From: Chloracidobacterium validum
GTDB lineage: Bacteria > Acidobacteriota > Blastocatellia > Chloracidobacteriales > Chloracidobacteriaceae
Reading direction: 5' to 3'
DNA: 64,000 bases
Assembly: GCF_018304825.1 (NCBI RefSeq)
Contig: NZ_CP072649.1
Span: forward strand, 372,001 to 436,000
The position numbers and the translations under genes were made by a program. Positions 48,607-53,558 of the stretch are shown piece by piece; positions within the stretch are counted from its first letter, which is position 1; each line of letters opens with the position of its first letter. The notes under the pieces were generated by a model that saw only the letters and a list, made by a program, of their open reading frames with translations, made no database searches and had not been told where the DNA came from.

Positions 48607-48966
48607 ATGTCAGATTCGATTTTCGAGTACACGGCGTCAGTGTCGCCCATCCTGCCGAATGAGGGGGCGCAGCTTGCCAAAAACTTTGCCTGTGCCGATC
48701 CCGGCCAGAAAACGTTCATTGGGTTGCCGCCTTCGATCAAGGACGCGCATGGGCTGCCGTCGGCGACCTGTGTCGTCGTTCAATTTGAGGTCAACACGGT
48801 CGCTCGGCAGTTGACGGCTTACATTGCTGGTGGGCGCGGTGGGCTGCTCCGACTCTCCACCGATCTAATGGAGGCGCTCCGGTTGGCGCCGAACGCAACA
48901 GCTACGATTCGGTTACTTTCCCGCGAGGGCGAGCTGCCGCGGATGGAACTCAGCGCCGTGAGCTGA
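48607..48966 (+). CDS. hypothetical protein
   Basis: A 119-residue protein that I do not recognise. It is soluble, with no helix long enough for a membrane. The sequence FEVNTVARQLTAYIAGGRGG in the middle and a beta-strand-rich end (ATIRLLSREGELPRMEL) suggest a small beta-sandwich. No clear ribosome site precedes ATG 48607. The end overlaps the tail of a GT39 pseudogene on the opposite strand by about 17 bases. It is kept because codon use looks normal and the gene fills the gap exactly. Confidence 0.55.
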   Translation: MSDSIFEYTASVSPILPNEGAQLAKNFACADPGQKTFIGLPPSIKDAHGLPSATCVVVQFEVNTVARQLTAYIAGGRGGLLRLSTDLMEALRLAPNATATIRLLSREGELPRMELSAVS

Positions 48967-49236
48967 CGCCGGGGGATGGCGGCCGCCGCCACTCGTAGAC
49001 GAGGTCGTCTCGTACGAATCGAAGCGAGTCCCAAATACCGGCCCAGGTGGGCATGGTCACGATGTGGTACGTAACAACTCATCTGGCCAGAACGCGCGCG
49101 AGACGGCGCTGTGAGCCACTGGAATGGCGTAAAGCAGGGTAAAGAGAGCAATGGTGAGGGTGTCTTCACGGTTCAGACCCGGCCGCCCGGTGGTTTCAAT
49201 TTGGCGTGACGGAGGGGGCAGAGTCGTCAAAGTCAT
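48950..49236 (-). pseudogene. collapsed copy of the GT39-type gene
   Basis: Remnant of a third member of the tandem GT39 set. The first part, from 49236, matches the N-terminus of the next gene almost residue for residue (TLPPPS, then EDTLTIALFTLLYAIPVAHS, then VSRAFW), then loses frame near 49077 where one A is missing relative to the intact copy. In the restored frame it reads TWAGIWDSLR and jumps at once to DDLVYEWRR, which looks like the C-terminal end (YLVYDFRW in the intact copies). So about 1.2 kb of the middle is deleted. A stop lies at 48950-48952. Its start region overlaps the end of the intact gene in the same way the two intact genes overlap each other. Confidence 0.8.
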
Positions 49237-50786
49237 TCTATGTCTGACCATCTGAAGTCATAGACGAGATATTCATCTGTTACCTTCACAACCGGGGTTC
49301 CGAGACGTTCGAGGTACTGGATGAGTCCTCTGGCTTCGTGAACTTTGTGACAAACGATGTAGTACCTGTCATGCGCCGTGCGGAAGGCCTCGGGGGCTTC
49401 AAAACGTGGGGCGCGGGGATTGCCCAGTATCGCCCGCAACCCACGGCTGGGGTCTTCCGGCTGCGGATAGGTCAGGACTCCAAAAACATGCACAACCCGT
49501 GGCAGTTGGTCACCAAAGTAGTGCTTGAGCTGGAGGTACATCACACAGTCCACAAGCACCGGCTGGTTTGGGTCAGGCAGGTTGGAGACCGCTTCGGTCC
49601 TTGGCAAGACCAGTTGCCACGGCTGAAGACCCGTCCAAAGCGCCACTGCGGCTAGAATCGTCCAGATGCCCCGAGCGACCCACCGAGCATGGTGCGCCGT
49701 CAGTTGGCCCACGACATACATCACCAGAAGGGTCAATCCAACCACTGCCGGAAGCAGGTAGCGGGGCGTGAACATCGTCCGACCGGTGACTTTCATCAGA
49801 ACCATCCATCCGACGGGCAAGCCGATCAGAAGCACAAACCCAAGCCAGAGCCACTCGGAAGGAAGTTTGGCAGAAGGCTGCGCCTCCTCCTGGCTTGGGT
49901 GGTGTCGAGAACGACGACCGAGCCGGTCAATGACTGCAACGACCGCCACAAGGGTCAAGAAAGCCAGACCGGTCAATGGACTGACCATCCACCAGTAAAA
50001 CTCAGACAGCTCAGACCAGCGCAGCGACATCTTCCAGTAAGGCAGTTTTGATTGTTCGGTCAGGAGCGGCCAGTTGTAAGCCAACACTGCCAAGGGGGCG
50101 GCCAGCGCTCCCCAGACCCTCCACCGGACCTGTCGTGTGCGCCAAGTGCGGTAGCCCTCCACCAGCCACAAACATCCAATTGGGAGCAGCACGAGGTAAT
50201 GAAAAGCCATTGCTAGGGCCAGCGTGCTGCCCAATCCGAGAACGGCGCGCCGTTGCCAAGTCGGCGGTTCAGCCGGGTCTATGAAGGCGTATGAGACCAG
50301 ACCGACACCCAGACAACCCAACATCAAGCCGTAGGGACGGGCTTCGCTGGCATAGTAGCCGGTGCCGGTGACCAGTGGTGTAACCAAAGCGATGAGACCG
50401 GTGGTCGAGGTTTGTCCGATGCGGCGTCCCAAGGTGTAGAGGGACAGGCACAGAAGCCAGTAGCCGATCATCGCCGGCAAGCGGAAGGCCCACTCGCTTT
50501 CACCGAAGACGCCGACCACCAGGCGCGTGAGCGCGTAGAACAGGGGAGGGTTTTGGTCGGGTCCGTTTCGGAGCAAGTCCCAGGTGCCGGCCCAGGTGGG
50601 CATGGTCACGATGTAGTACGTAAACAACTCATCCAGCCAAAACGCGCGCGAGACGGCGCTGTGAGCCACCGGAATGGCGTAAAGCAGGGTAAACAGAGCA
50701 ATGGTGAGGGTGTCTTCACGATTCAGACCCAGCCGCCCGGTGGTTTCGATGTGGGGTGACGGAGGGGGCAGAGCCGTCAAAGTCAT
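49233..50786 (-). CDS. GT39-type membrane glycosyltransferase, copy 2
   Basis: A 517-residue integral membrane protein of the ArnT/PMT kind, which transfers sugars from polyprenyl-phosphate donors on the periplasmic side. SRAFWLDELFTYY near residue 44-56 holds the acidic Asp-Glu pair expected in the first loop, followed by NGPDQNPPLFYAL near 73-85, then about ten to twelve helices and a small soluble C-terminal domain ending YDFRWSDIE. ATG 50786 overlaps the stop of the preceding gene (ATGA); ATG 50801 is also in frame. The central 1.2 kb is nearly identical to the adjacent copy, while the two ends differ. Confidence 0.88.
   Translation of the reverse strand: MTLTALPPPSPHIETTGRLGLNREDTLTIALFTLLYAIPVAHSAVSRAFWLDELFTYYIVTMPTWAGTWDLLRNGPDQNPPLFYALTRLVVGVFGESEWAFRLPAMIGYWLLCLSLYTLGRRIGQTSTTGLIALVTPLVTGTGYYASEARPYGLMLGCLGVGLVSYAFIDPAEPPTWQRRAVLGLGSTLALAMAFHYLVLLPIGCLWLVEGYRTWRTRQVRWRVWGALAAPLAVLAYNWPLLTEQSKLPYWKMSLRWSELSEFYWWMVSPLTGLAFLTLVAVVAVIDRLGRRSRHHPSQEEAQPSAKLPSEWLWLGFVLLIGLPVGWMVLMKVTGRTMFTPRYLLPAVVGLTLLVMYVVGQLTAHHARWVARGIWTILAAVALWTGLQPWQLVLPRTEAVSNLPDPNQPVLVDCVMYLQLKHYFGDQLPRVVHVFGVLTYPQPEDPSRGLRAILGNPRAPRFEAPEAFRTAHDRYYIVCHKVHEARGLIQYLERLGTPVVKVTDEYLVYDFRWSDIE
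49397..50609. repeat. tandem repeat block, unit B (paired with 50947-52159)
   Basis: This 1213-base block recurs at a constant offset of 1550 bases as 50947-52159. By eye I count about six mismatches, one near 49934 and five clustered at 50468-50484. Homology ends sharply on both sides, inside the coding sequences, where the flanking parts of the two genes are clearly diverged. Confidence 0.85.
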
Positions 50787-52330
50787 TCTATGTCTGACCA
50801 TCTGAAGTCATAGATGAGATATTCAGATGTTTGCCGAACTACCGGTACCTGATGTTTCTCAAGTCGTAACTTGAGATTTTCATCCCTAAAATCCTTGCAA
50901 TAGACGATGTAAAACCTTTCGTTGGCTTCAAAGAAAGCGTTTGGGTCTTCAAAACGTGGGGCGCGGGGATTGCCCAGTATCGCCCGCAACCCACGGCTGG
51001 GGTCTTCCGGCTGCGGATAGGTCAGGACTCCAAAAACATGCACAACCCGTGGCAGTTGGTCACCAAAGTAGTGCTTGAGCTGGAGGTACATCACACAGTC
51101 CACAAGCACCGGCTGGTTTGGGTCAGGCAGGTTGGAGACCGCTTCGGTCCTTGGCAAGACCAGTTGCCACGGCTGAAGACCCGTCCAAAGCGCCACTGCG
51201 GCTAGAATCGTCCAGATGCCCCGAGCGACCCACCGAGCATGGTGCGCCGTCAGTTGGCCCACGACATACATCACCAGAAGGGTCAATCCAACCACTGCCG
51301 GAAGCAGGTAGCGGGGCGTGAACATCGTCCGACCGGTGACTTTCATCAGAACCATCCATCCGACGGGCAAGCCGATCAGAAGCACAAACCCAAGCCAGAG
51401 CCACTCGGAAGGAAGTTTGGCAGAAGGCTGCGCCTCCTCCTGGCTTGGGTGGTGTCGAGAACGACGACCGAGCCGGTCAATGACCGCAACGACCGCCACA
51501 AGGGTCAAGAAAGCCAGACCGGTCAATGGACTGACCATCCACCAGTAAAACTCAGACAGCTCAGACCAGCGCAGCGACATCTTCCAGTAAGGCAGTTTTG
51601 ATTGTTCGGTCAGGAGCGGCCAGTTGTAAGCCAACACTGCCAAGGGGGCGGCCAGCGCTCCCCAGACCCTCCACCGGACCTGTCGTGTGCGCCAAGTGCG
51701 GTAGCCCTCCACCAGCCACAAACATCCAATTGGGAGCAGCACGAGGTAATGAAAAGCCATTGCTAGGGCCAGCGTGCTGCCCAATCCGAGAACGGCGCGC
51801 CGTTGCCAAGTCGGCGGTTCAGCCGGGTCTATGAAGGCGTATGAGACCAGACCGACACCCAGACAACCCAACATCAAGCCGTAGGGACGGGCTTCGCTGG
51901 CATAGTAGCCGGTGCCGGTGACCAGTGGTGTAACCAAAGCGATGAGACCGGTGGTCGAGGTTTGTCCGATGCGGCGTCCCAAGGTGTAGAGGGACAGGCA
52001 CAGAAGCCAGTAGCCGACCACAGCCGGCAGGCGAAAGGCCCACTCGCTTTCACCGAAGACGCCGACCACCAGGCGCGTGAGCGCGTAGAACAGGGGAGGG
52101 TTTTGGTCGGGTCCGTTTCGGAGCAAGTCCCAGGTGCCGGCCCAGGTGGGCATGGTCACAACATAGTAGGTGAACAGCTCATCTATCCAGAACGCCCGGG
52201 TCACCGCTTCATGCCCAACATAGAGAATATAAAGTGCAGTGAAGAGGACGACGGTCAGCCAGTCAGTGCGCGTGATGCCAAGGCGCGGCGTCCTGCCTGG
52301 CGTTGGTTCGGCACAGCCAAGAAATGGCAT
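50783..52330 (-). CDS. GT39-type membrane glycosyltransferase, copy 1
   Basis: A 515-residue paralogue of the following gene and the first of the tandem set in reading direction. Its N-terminus (GITRTDWLTVVLFTALYILY, then TRAFWIDELFTYY) and the last 50 residues (EANERFYIVYCKDF onward) differ from copy 2, but the middle from MPTWAGTW to the block ending RFE is almost the same. The Asp-Glu pair in IDEL is kept. Start at ATG 52330; no good ribosome site is visible. No polyprenyl-phosphate sugar synthase is adjacent, so donor is unknown. Confidence 0.88.
   Translation of the reverse strand: MPFLGCAEPTPGRTPRLGITRTDWLTVVLFTALYILYVGHEAVTRAFWIDELFTYYVVTMPTWAGTWDLLRNGPDQNPPLFYALTRLVVGVFGESEWAFRLPAVVGYWLLCLSLYTLGRRIGQTSTTGLIALVTPLVTGTGYYASEARPYGLMLGCLGVGLVSYAFIDPAEPPTWQRRAVLGLGSTLALAMAFHYLVLLPIGCLWLVEGYRTWRTRQVRWRVWGALAAPLAVLAYNWPLLTEQSKLPYWKMSLRWSELSEFYWWMVSPLTGLAFLTLVAVVAVIDRLGRRSRHHPSQEEAQPSAKLPSEWLWLGFVLLIGLPVGWMVLMKVTGRTMFTPRYLLPAVVGLTLLVMYVVGQLTAHHARWVARGIWTILAAVALWTGLQPWQLVLPRTEAVSNLPDPNQPVLVDCVMYLQLKHYFGDQLPRVVHVFGVLTYPQPEDPSRGLRAILGNPRAPRFEDPNAFFEANERFYIVYCKDFRDENLKLRLEKHQVPVVRQTSEYLIYDFRWSDIE
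50947..52159. repeat. tandem repeat block, unit C (paired with 49397-50609)
   Basis: Second copy of the near-identical core of the GT39-type genes, offset by 1550 bases. The junction sequence around the stop/start overlap (50774-50813 against 49224-49263) is also the same, so the duplication period is preserved through the intergenic joint. Confidence 0.85.
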
Positions 52331-52724
52331 AGGTCAAGAAGGTTGCCACCGGCAACCGAGTGCGTCATAGCATATTTTGCCGTGCGGTTTGCTGAGTGGT
52401 GTTGATTTTGCTGGAGTAAGGCTACCAACGCAACTGTAATCATCAGTTCAGGTACGGCAAAGCGTGAACAAGCTTTTACTGGCCGGCGCAGCCCGCTTGG
52501 CGCGACCCGAAACGTTGACCGAGCGCATCCGGCAAGGTCGCTGTCCGAACTTCGAGACTGGCGGAGACTTTCAGTCACCGGCTTGAGCTGGCGCTTACAG
52601 ACGGCTGTCCACGGTGATTTCCAGTTGGTGTCTCCAGGCAGCTCCCTATCCGTGGTTGTGTTCGTCCGGTCGGTTGGGCTATGTAGGCCAGACGCAACTT
52701 TTCACAGCAAGGGGGACGCACGGC
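52331..52724. other. divergent intergenic region
   Basis: A 394-base gap between the divergent GT39-type gene set (minus) and the enoyl-CoA hydratase gene (plus). It should contain promoters for both directions. The plus-strand frame of the hydratase is open through 52614-52724, but no ribosome site or family similarity supports a longer protein. I see no RNA gene or strong hairpin. Confidence 0.5.
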
Positions 52725-53516
52725 ATGGCTTATGAAACCATCATCGTTGACACCAAGGACGCTATCGCGCGGGTGACGCTCAATCGCCCCGACACGCTCA
52801 ACGCCATGAACCAAACCATGGTTGGCGAGTTGACGTCCGCTTTCACCGCGCTCGCCGAACAGTCCGATGTTCGCGCCGTGGTCCTGACCGGGGCAGGGCG
52901 GGCATTCTCGTCTGGCGGCGACATCCGGGGCATGCTGGCCGCCGCGCCAGAATCCACAGCCGAGACGGTGCGAACCATGATCGAGCGCGTCAATCGGATG
53001 GTGTTGGCGCTGTACGACTTGCCCCAGCCGGTGCTTGCCGCCATCAATGGCCCGGCGCACGGCTTGGGGATGAGCCTGACGCTTGCGGCCGATTACCGCA
53101 TTGCCGCCATGAGCGCCAGTTTTTCCCAGGCTTTCATCAAAATCGGACTCATTCCAGATGGCGGCGGAACATTCTTGTTGCCGCGAATTGTGGGTTGGGC
53201 CTGCGCCACCGACCTGATGCTGACCGGAAGAACTGTCCCGGCCGGAGAAGCCAAAACCATCGGACTCGTTCACCAGACCATTGCTGACGCCGAGTTTGCC
53301 AAAACCGTCCAGCTTTGCGCCCAGCAGTTTGCCAGCGCGCCGACCCAGGCCATTGCGCGAACCAAAGCCCTGCTCAGAAGCAGTCGCCGGGCAGACTTCG
53401 CCGCGCAGCTCGATCTCGAACTCAATCACCAGGCCGGCTGCGCCGTGACTGCCGACTTCCGGGAAGGCGTCACCGCGTTTTTGGAAAAGCGCGCGCCGGT
53501 CTTCACCGGGCGGTGA
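52725..53516 (+). CDS. enoyl-CoA hydratase/isomerase family protein
   Basis: Crotonase-fold enzyme, probably hydrating a trans-2-enoyl-CoA, 263 residues. LNRPDTLNAMNQTMVGELTS near 20-39 is the CoA-binding entry, AFSSGGDIRGML near 61-72 the first oxyanion-hole segment, and AAINGPAHGLGMSLTLAADY near 104-123 the second. The usual catalytic glutamates (Glu144/Glu164 in rat hydratase) are not clear: GLGMSLTLA has Met-Ser where a Glu is often found, and IGLIPDGGGTFLLPR near 140-154 has Asp in the second position (PDGGGT), as in isomerases. So isomerase-type chemistry (PaaG-like) is as likely as hydration. AGGGGG lies ten bases upstream of the ATG. Confidence 0.88.
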   Translation: MAYETIIVDTKDAIARVTLNRPDTLNAMNQTMVGELTSAFTALAEQSDVRAVVLTGAGRAFSSGGDIRGMLAAAPESTAETVRTMIERVNRMVLALYDLPQPVLAAINGPAHGLGMSLTLAADYRIAAMSASFSQAFIKIGLIPDGGGTFLLPRIVGWACATDLMLTGRTVPAGEAKTIGLVHQTIADAEFAKTVQLCAQQFASAPTQAIARTKALLRSSRRADFAAQLDLELNHQAGCAVTADFREGVTAFLEKRAPVFTGR

Positions 53517-53558
53517 GCTACGCCGAAGCGACATCGTCTCTGAAAGGCAACCCGGATT

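Follow-up and report, generated by a model that had tools for sequence, protein, structure and literature searches.

Background

Tandem gene families that evolve by birth and death form a known class, and the array of predicted membrane glycosyltransferase genes described here resembles them in its copy number, which is four, two or one, or has been reduced to remnants. Gene conversion as the cause of concerted evolution among paralogues in prokaryotes was described by Wang and Chen 2018 (PMC6053082), a paper which, in the sections drawn on here, treats full-length cases and leaves partial ones to future work. The array shares with the cases in those sections that the copies within a species are alike at silent sites, a likeness that is not confined to a single species; it differs from them in that only a part of each gene is homogenised, and the limits of this part are different, yet overlapping, in two species. 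On the side of the encoded proteins, the closest described system is ArnT of the GT-C/PMT clan, in which, according to the section of PMC7801869 used here, an Asp-Glu pair (D55/E56) lies at the active site.

The window, i.e. the whole stretch of 64,000 nucleotides that was analysed, corresponds to positions 372001-436000 of the contig C2 (1,000,103 bases) in the Chloracidobacterium validum genome (G000), which comprises 3,659,143 bases in two contigs. The host is a heat-loving phototroph. A description of the array was not found in the literature searched on this topic: the main text of PMC8245765 contains neither 'glycosyl' nor 'gene conversion', and that of PMC12816986 does not contain 'glycosyltransferase'. 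The process is known and the instance is new; the event is clear but ordinary in kind.

Results

Two genes with a shared core and diverged ends

Two genes, B and A, follow each other in this order on the minus strand with an overlap of 19 bp, and a third, decayed copy, C, lies downstream of A. The features are as follows (window positions):

50783-52330, minus strand: gene B (515 aa), which opens the array, predicted PMT_2-like membrane glycosyltransferase
49233-50801, minus strand: gene A, second gene, 522 aa, with a C-like N-terminal end and a B-like core
48984-49251 (limits approximate), minus strand: copy C, third member of the array, decayed
50947-52159, minus strand: homogenised core, B copy (B residues ~58-462)
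49397-50609, minus strand: homogenised core, A copy (A residues ~65-469)
50468-50484, minus strand: cluster of five mismatches inside the core, of mixed origin
50815-50946, minus strand: diverged C-terminal patch of B
49265-49396, minus strand: C-terminal patch of A (132 bp), diverged from B to 50% identity
50623-50814, minus strand: junction tract B/A, from the final codons of B into the start of A
49073-49264, minus strand: junction tract A/C, from the final codons of A into the start of C
50587-50609, minus strand: 23-bp block (encoded peptide VTMPTWAG) that A shares without mismatch with B (52137-52159) and C (49038-49060)

The sequence-only reading had described a tandem array in which two genes share a block of 1213 bases at an offset of 1550 bases, with about six clustered mismatches and clearly diverged ends. 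All of this was borne out by our analysis: the core extends over 1213 bp at offset 1550 with six mismatches (49935, 50468, 50471, 50472, 50480 and 50484), five of which fall within 17 bp, and the DNA identity between A and B is 56% in A residues 28-64 (111 nt) and 50% in the C-terminal patch (132 nt). Within the 17-bp cluster, the first changed residue is Met in A, which is the commoner state, and Val in B; at the second it is B that has the commoner residue, Val, and A has Ile. Three families of direct repeats, all of them inside the array, were found in the 64-kb window, and no inverted repeats (seed 20, minimum length 60).

Copy C and the second near-repeat at 49073-49264 are both absent from the sequence-only reading. 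The start of C (49251) overlaps the stop of A, in the same arrangement in which the start of A lies on the stop of B. The first 59 codons of C are 91.5% identical to A at the protein level; a deletion of one base near 49072 is followed by a large internal deletion, beyond which the copy ends in a type II-like stretch. This last piece reads LVYEWRR and resembles the ends of the final array genes in the related genomes G005 and G006, the 3' match being short (31 bp at 77% to the second G005 copy, G005_2, and 19 bp at 89% to the fourth G006 copy, G006_4). The two junction tracts are likewise exactly 1550 bp apart and differ at 11 of 192 positions. Upstream of the 23-bp block A resembles C, and beyond it B. 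To judge from this pattern, A looks chimeric, with the switch inside the block, and the switch fits either a conversion tract that ends there or an unequal crossover at this site.

Age of the core and of the ends

In the core of A and B, dN is 0.002 and dS 0.013, whereas dN is 0.37 at the N-terminal end, where dS could not be computed, and 0.52 at the C-terminal end, where dS is 2.5. For those pairs from different species that were computed, dS of the core region is ~1 to 4. With the ends diverged and the core at a dS of 0.013, it follows that a recently copied core sits between old ends; silent sites are far more alike inside the tract than in its flanks, as is expected of gene conversion. 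The sequence-only reading had offered, besides conversion, a fresh duplication followed by replacement of the ends. Ordinary divergence of the ends after such a duplication is ruled out, given that the ends are saturated or near saturation at a core dS of 0.013, but a duplication whose parts were later swapped with those of older paralogues stands as a competing account.

The comparison of the ends with other paralogues, which had been proposed as a check, gave a clear outcome for one end only. In residues 28-64, A is 58-72% and B 59-72% identical to seven copies from other species, and the A/B value (56%) lies below all 14 of these, which argues clearly that the N-terminal ends would date back to about the time when the species split. 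For the C-terminal patch the same would hold weakly, since the A/B value of 50% is within the cross-species range (A 41-60%, B 41-56%): it exceeds both type II values (41-44%) and falls among the rest (49-60%). A donor of the C-terminal patch was not found among the copies compared, the best identity of either gene being to G006_2 (60% for A, 56% for B). Over columns 484-547, in which the shared last codons are included, A and B are 55% identical as proteins, the best value for either gene.

In the tree of the core, the type II pair G005_2/G006_4 is set apart at 100/100, bootstrap values which the program itself calls rough, and this separation indicates that the array contains paralogues predating the species. 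The trees of the two ends are built on short segments and place neither A nor B in a supported group: the N-terminal tree has no starred branch, and the only one in the C-terminal tree is that of the type II pair.

Homogenised segments in two species

The alignment of copies across relatives with a test for conversion tracts, suggested earlier, was carried out on nine copies (36 pairs) with 10,000 permutations, once on all polymorphic sites and once on third positions. Among the best 16 of the 36 pairs listed for each site set, seven pairs, each within one genome, reached 0/10,000 on both sets: A/B, with a segment spanning columns 82-487, and all six pairs of the four G006 copies, with segments between columns 54 and 160. 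The claim that exchange has kept the core alike is supported by this result as well as by the core dS, which differs so strongly from the ends. The G006 segment is common to all four copies, is shorter than the A/B core and overlaps it partly; dS in the G006 tracts is 0.03-0.16, compared with 1.4-2.3 in the longer remainder. Two more pairs, with p = 0.0003 on all sites and 0.113 and 0.067 on third positions, were not counted. The latter of them, G005_1/G006_4, joins copies from different species, so the test can return small values without conversion being expected. The two copies of G005 have no accepted tract among the best 16 of the 36 pairs listed.

Distribution of the array and its neighbours

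Seven Chloracidobacterium genomes were searched, the genome of C. validum included, i.e. six congeners. G006 has four copies in a row, G005 two and G004 one, N-terminal remnants are present in G001 and G003, and in G002 (a draft, 85% complete) nothing was found but a C-terminal fragment at the edge of a contig. In a search of 58 genomes, close relatives of the array were found in Chloracidobacterium genomes only, the best match among the 51 genomes outside the genus having an E value of 1.8e-12. A contig search with B returned one close relative, which is the G004 genome, and three weak matches of 28-36% identity. The G001 remnant (L029 6847-7365, minus strand) has the 5' end of G005 copy 1, continues as copy-2-like sequence and then passes through a deletion into the downstream region; going by these sequence matches, it is a chimera. 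G006 copy 2 (L026 8312-9811, minus strand) contains one in-frame TGA, either a draft error or the mark of a pseudogene.

Neighbouring genes were compared by blastp between the fetched loci and named from Pfam. On the 3' side of the array there is an aldehyde dehydrogenase in G001, G002, G003 and G005 and a DUF2237 gene in G001, G003 and G005; on the 5' side there is a GT87 gene in G001, G003, G004, G005 and G006. Metal-resistance-like and HtrA-like genes are present at the loci of G001, G002, G003, G005 and G006, and in four relatives these genes and GT87 adjoin the array or what remains of it. In G002 (L031 1-3347) the metal-resistance-like gene adjoins a small 119-codon-type gene with neither array nor GT87 in between, and the C-terminal glycosyltransferase piece lies beyond the protease.

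C. validum has its GT87, metal-resistance-like and HtrA-like genes ~190 kb away from the array (C2 ~611-615 kb, L039), and a synteny break lies directly upstream of B (window 52330-52614). Extensive rearrangement of this genome is described in the section of PMC8245765 drawn on here. The displaced GT87 has two TGA codons in the stretch aligned by the search, yet a long open frame is present. An open frame of 319 aa at 52575-53534 (minus strand), antisense to an enoyl-CoA hydratase gene (52614-53516, plus strand), has no Pfam match at E 0.01 and is probably not a gene.

Predicted function

The two proteins match Pfam PMT_2 with 27.1 and 26.4 bits, marginally above the cut-off of 26.1. Like ArnT, for which the comparison rests on part of PMC7801869, they have an invariant Asp-Glu pair after the first hydrophobic stretch: in A this stretch comprises residues 32-50 and the pair is D57/E58, present in all eight aligned copies. 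They depart from ArnT and other GT-C enzymes in that a sequence search of solved structures (PDB) gave no match at E up to 1, and an AlphaFold2 model from three sequences has a mean pLDDT of 38.4, too low for the model to be of use. NCBIfam matches of A and B are all far below the cut-off, and G005_2 has none. The earlier label 'GT39-type' thus receives marginal support from the PMT_2 match and none from the PDB search. On the strength of this match and the invariant pair, A and B are likely GT-C/PMT-like sugar transferases, which would take a sugar from a lipid-phosphate donor and attach it to an acceptor in the envelope; together with the GT87 neighbour in relatives, the same evidence suggests that the array may serve an envelope glycan.

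Discussion

The mosaic identity of A and B, with diverged ends around a young core, the homogenised segment in a second species, the differences in copy number and the remnants are directly observed; conversion as the molecular event, and the recombination machinery behind it, we infer. The explanation that we prefer, with a probability of roughly 0.65, is that old tandem paralogues in a birth-and-death array undergo repeated partial gene conversion, along with some unequal exchange. A and B would be such paralogues, and homologous exchange between neighbours, by gene conversion and occasionally by unequal crossing-over, would have copied ~1.2 kb between them in recent time and left the ends untouched. 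One edge of the A/B tract and the N-side edges of the G006 tracts lie within or close to a conserved stretch of DNA around the first extracytoplasmic loop. Exchange of this kind may also yield chimeras and deletions, through which copies multiply, fuse and decay.

Alternatively, a single unequal crossing-over in the 23-bp block might have duplicated the 1550-bp unit and thereby produced B, a hybrid with a C-type N-terminal end and a B core, and C; the C-terminal patch and the 17-bp cluster would then stem from later, short exchanges, and conversion of the long core would not be needed. The two accounts are mutually exclusive. Crossing-over agrees with the C-like sequence of A before the block and its identity to B after it, and with the spacing of both junction tracts at exactly 1550 bp; moreover, C. 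validum is represented by one strain, and single genomes fit conversion and unequal crossing-over equally. However, one crossing-over predicts one age for the entire unit, and the core (6/1213) is more alike than the junction tract (11/192; Fisher p = 1.4e-6), which favours a later conversion of the core. The 132-bp C-terminal patch would also still require a separate event. Since C is a pseudogene that perhaps drifts faster, part of the difference between junction and core could be due to C itself, and crossing-over accordingly retains an appreciable share of the probability, although we consider it rather unlikely.

The sequence-only reading had also envisaged a reservoir-like exchange of C-terminal domains, in which a diversity-generating system would alter acceptor specificity. 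The C-terminal patches of A and B do differ, and chimeric copies exist, but a store of alternative ends was not found: searches of the own genome return only A, B, pieces of the remnant and one distant relative of 29% identity. The latter, a relative of B, lies elsewhere on the chromosome (L004, C2:915624-917006). In addition, the most recent movement is that of the core, and such a reservoir appears improbable to us.

An assembly artefact, by which a single core was duplicated or collapsed, had been named as what would refute the array. The near-identity of the core, judged from assembled sequence, might suggest it, but we regard it as very improbable: the flanks of the two core copies are distinct, mismatches are present inside the core, tandem copies occur at the corresponding locus in G005 (a two-contig genome) and G006, and the BV2-C assembly was built, according to the section of PMC8245765 used here, from PacBio Sequel reads with Canu 1.8 and Circlator and was circularised. 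Selection on the protein without any exchange, for which the many core columns invariant among eight aligned copies might speak, is rejected as practically without probability on the identity of A and B at silent sites (dS 0.013 against the cross-species values of ~1 to 4).

Conclusions

A further and rather doubtful possibility is that the conserved DNA encoding the first-loop motif serves as an inherent seam: the membrane core would be kept uniform by exchange, and selection would keep the old, differing N- and C-terminal ends, recombined as modules, so that each lineage would have a changing set of envelope glycosyltransferases. The locus is a compact and readable example of probable partial gene conversion among the tandem genes of a bacterial family; the extent of the homogenised segments differs between two species, and the remnants illustrate a route of copy loss. 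Whole-gene trees of the glycosyltransferase family of this array can mislead. If selection keeps the ends different, the locus would indicate which parts of such enzymes bear their specificity.
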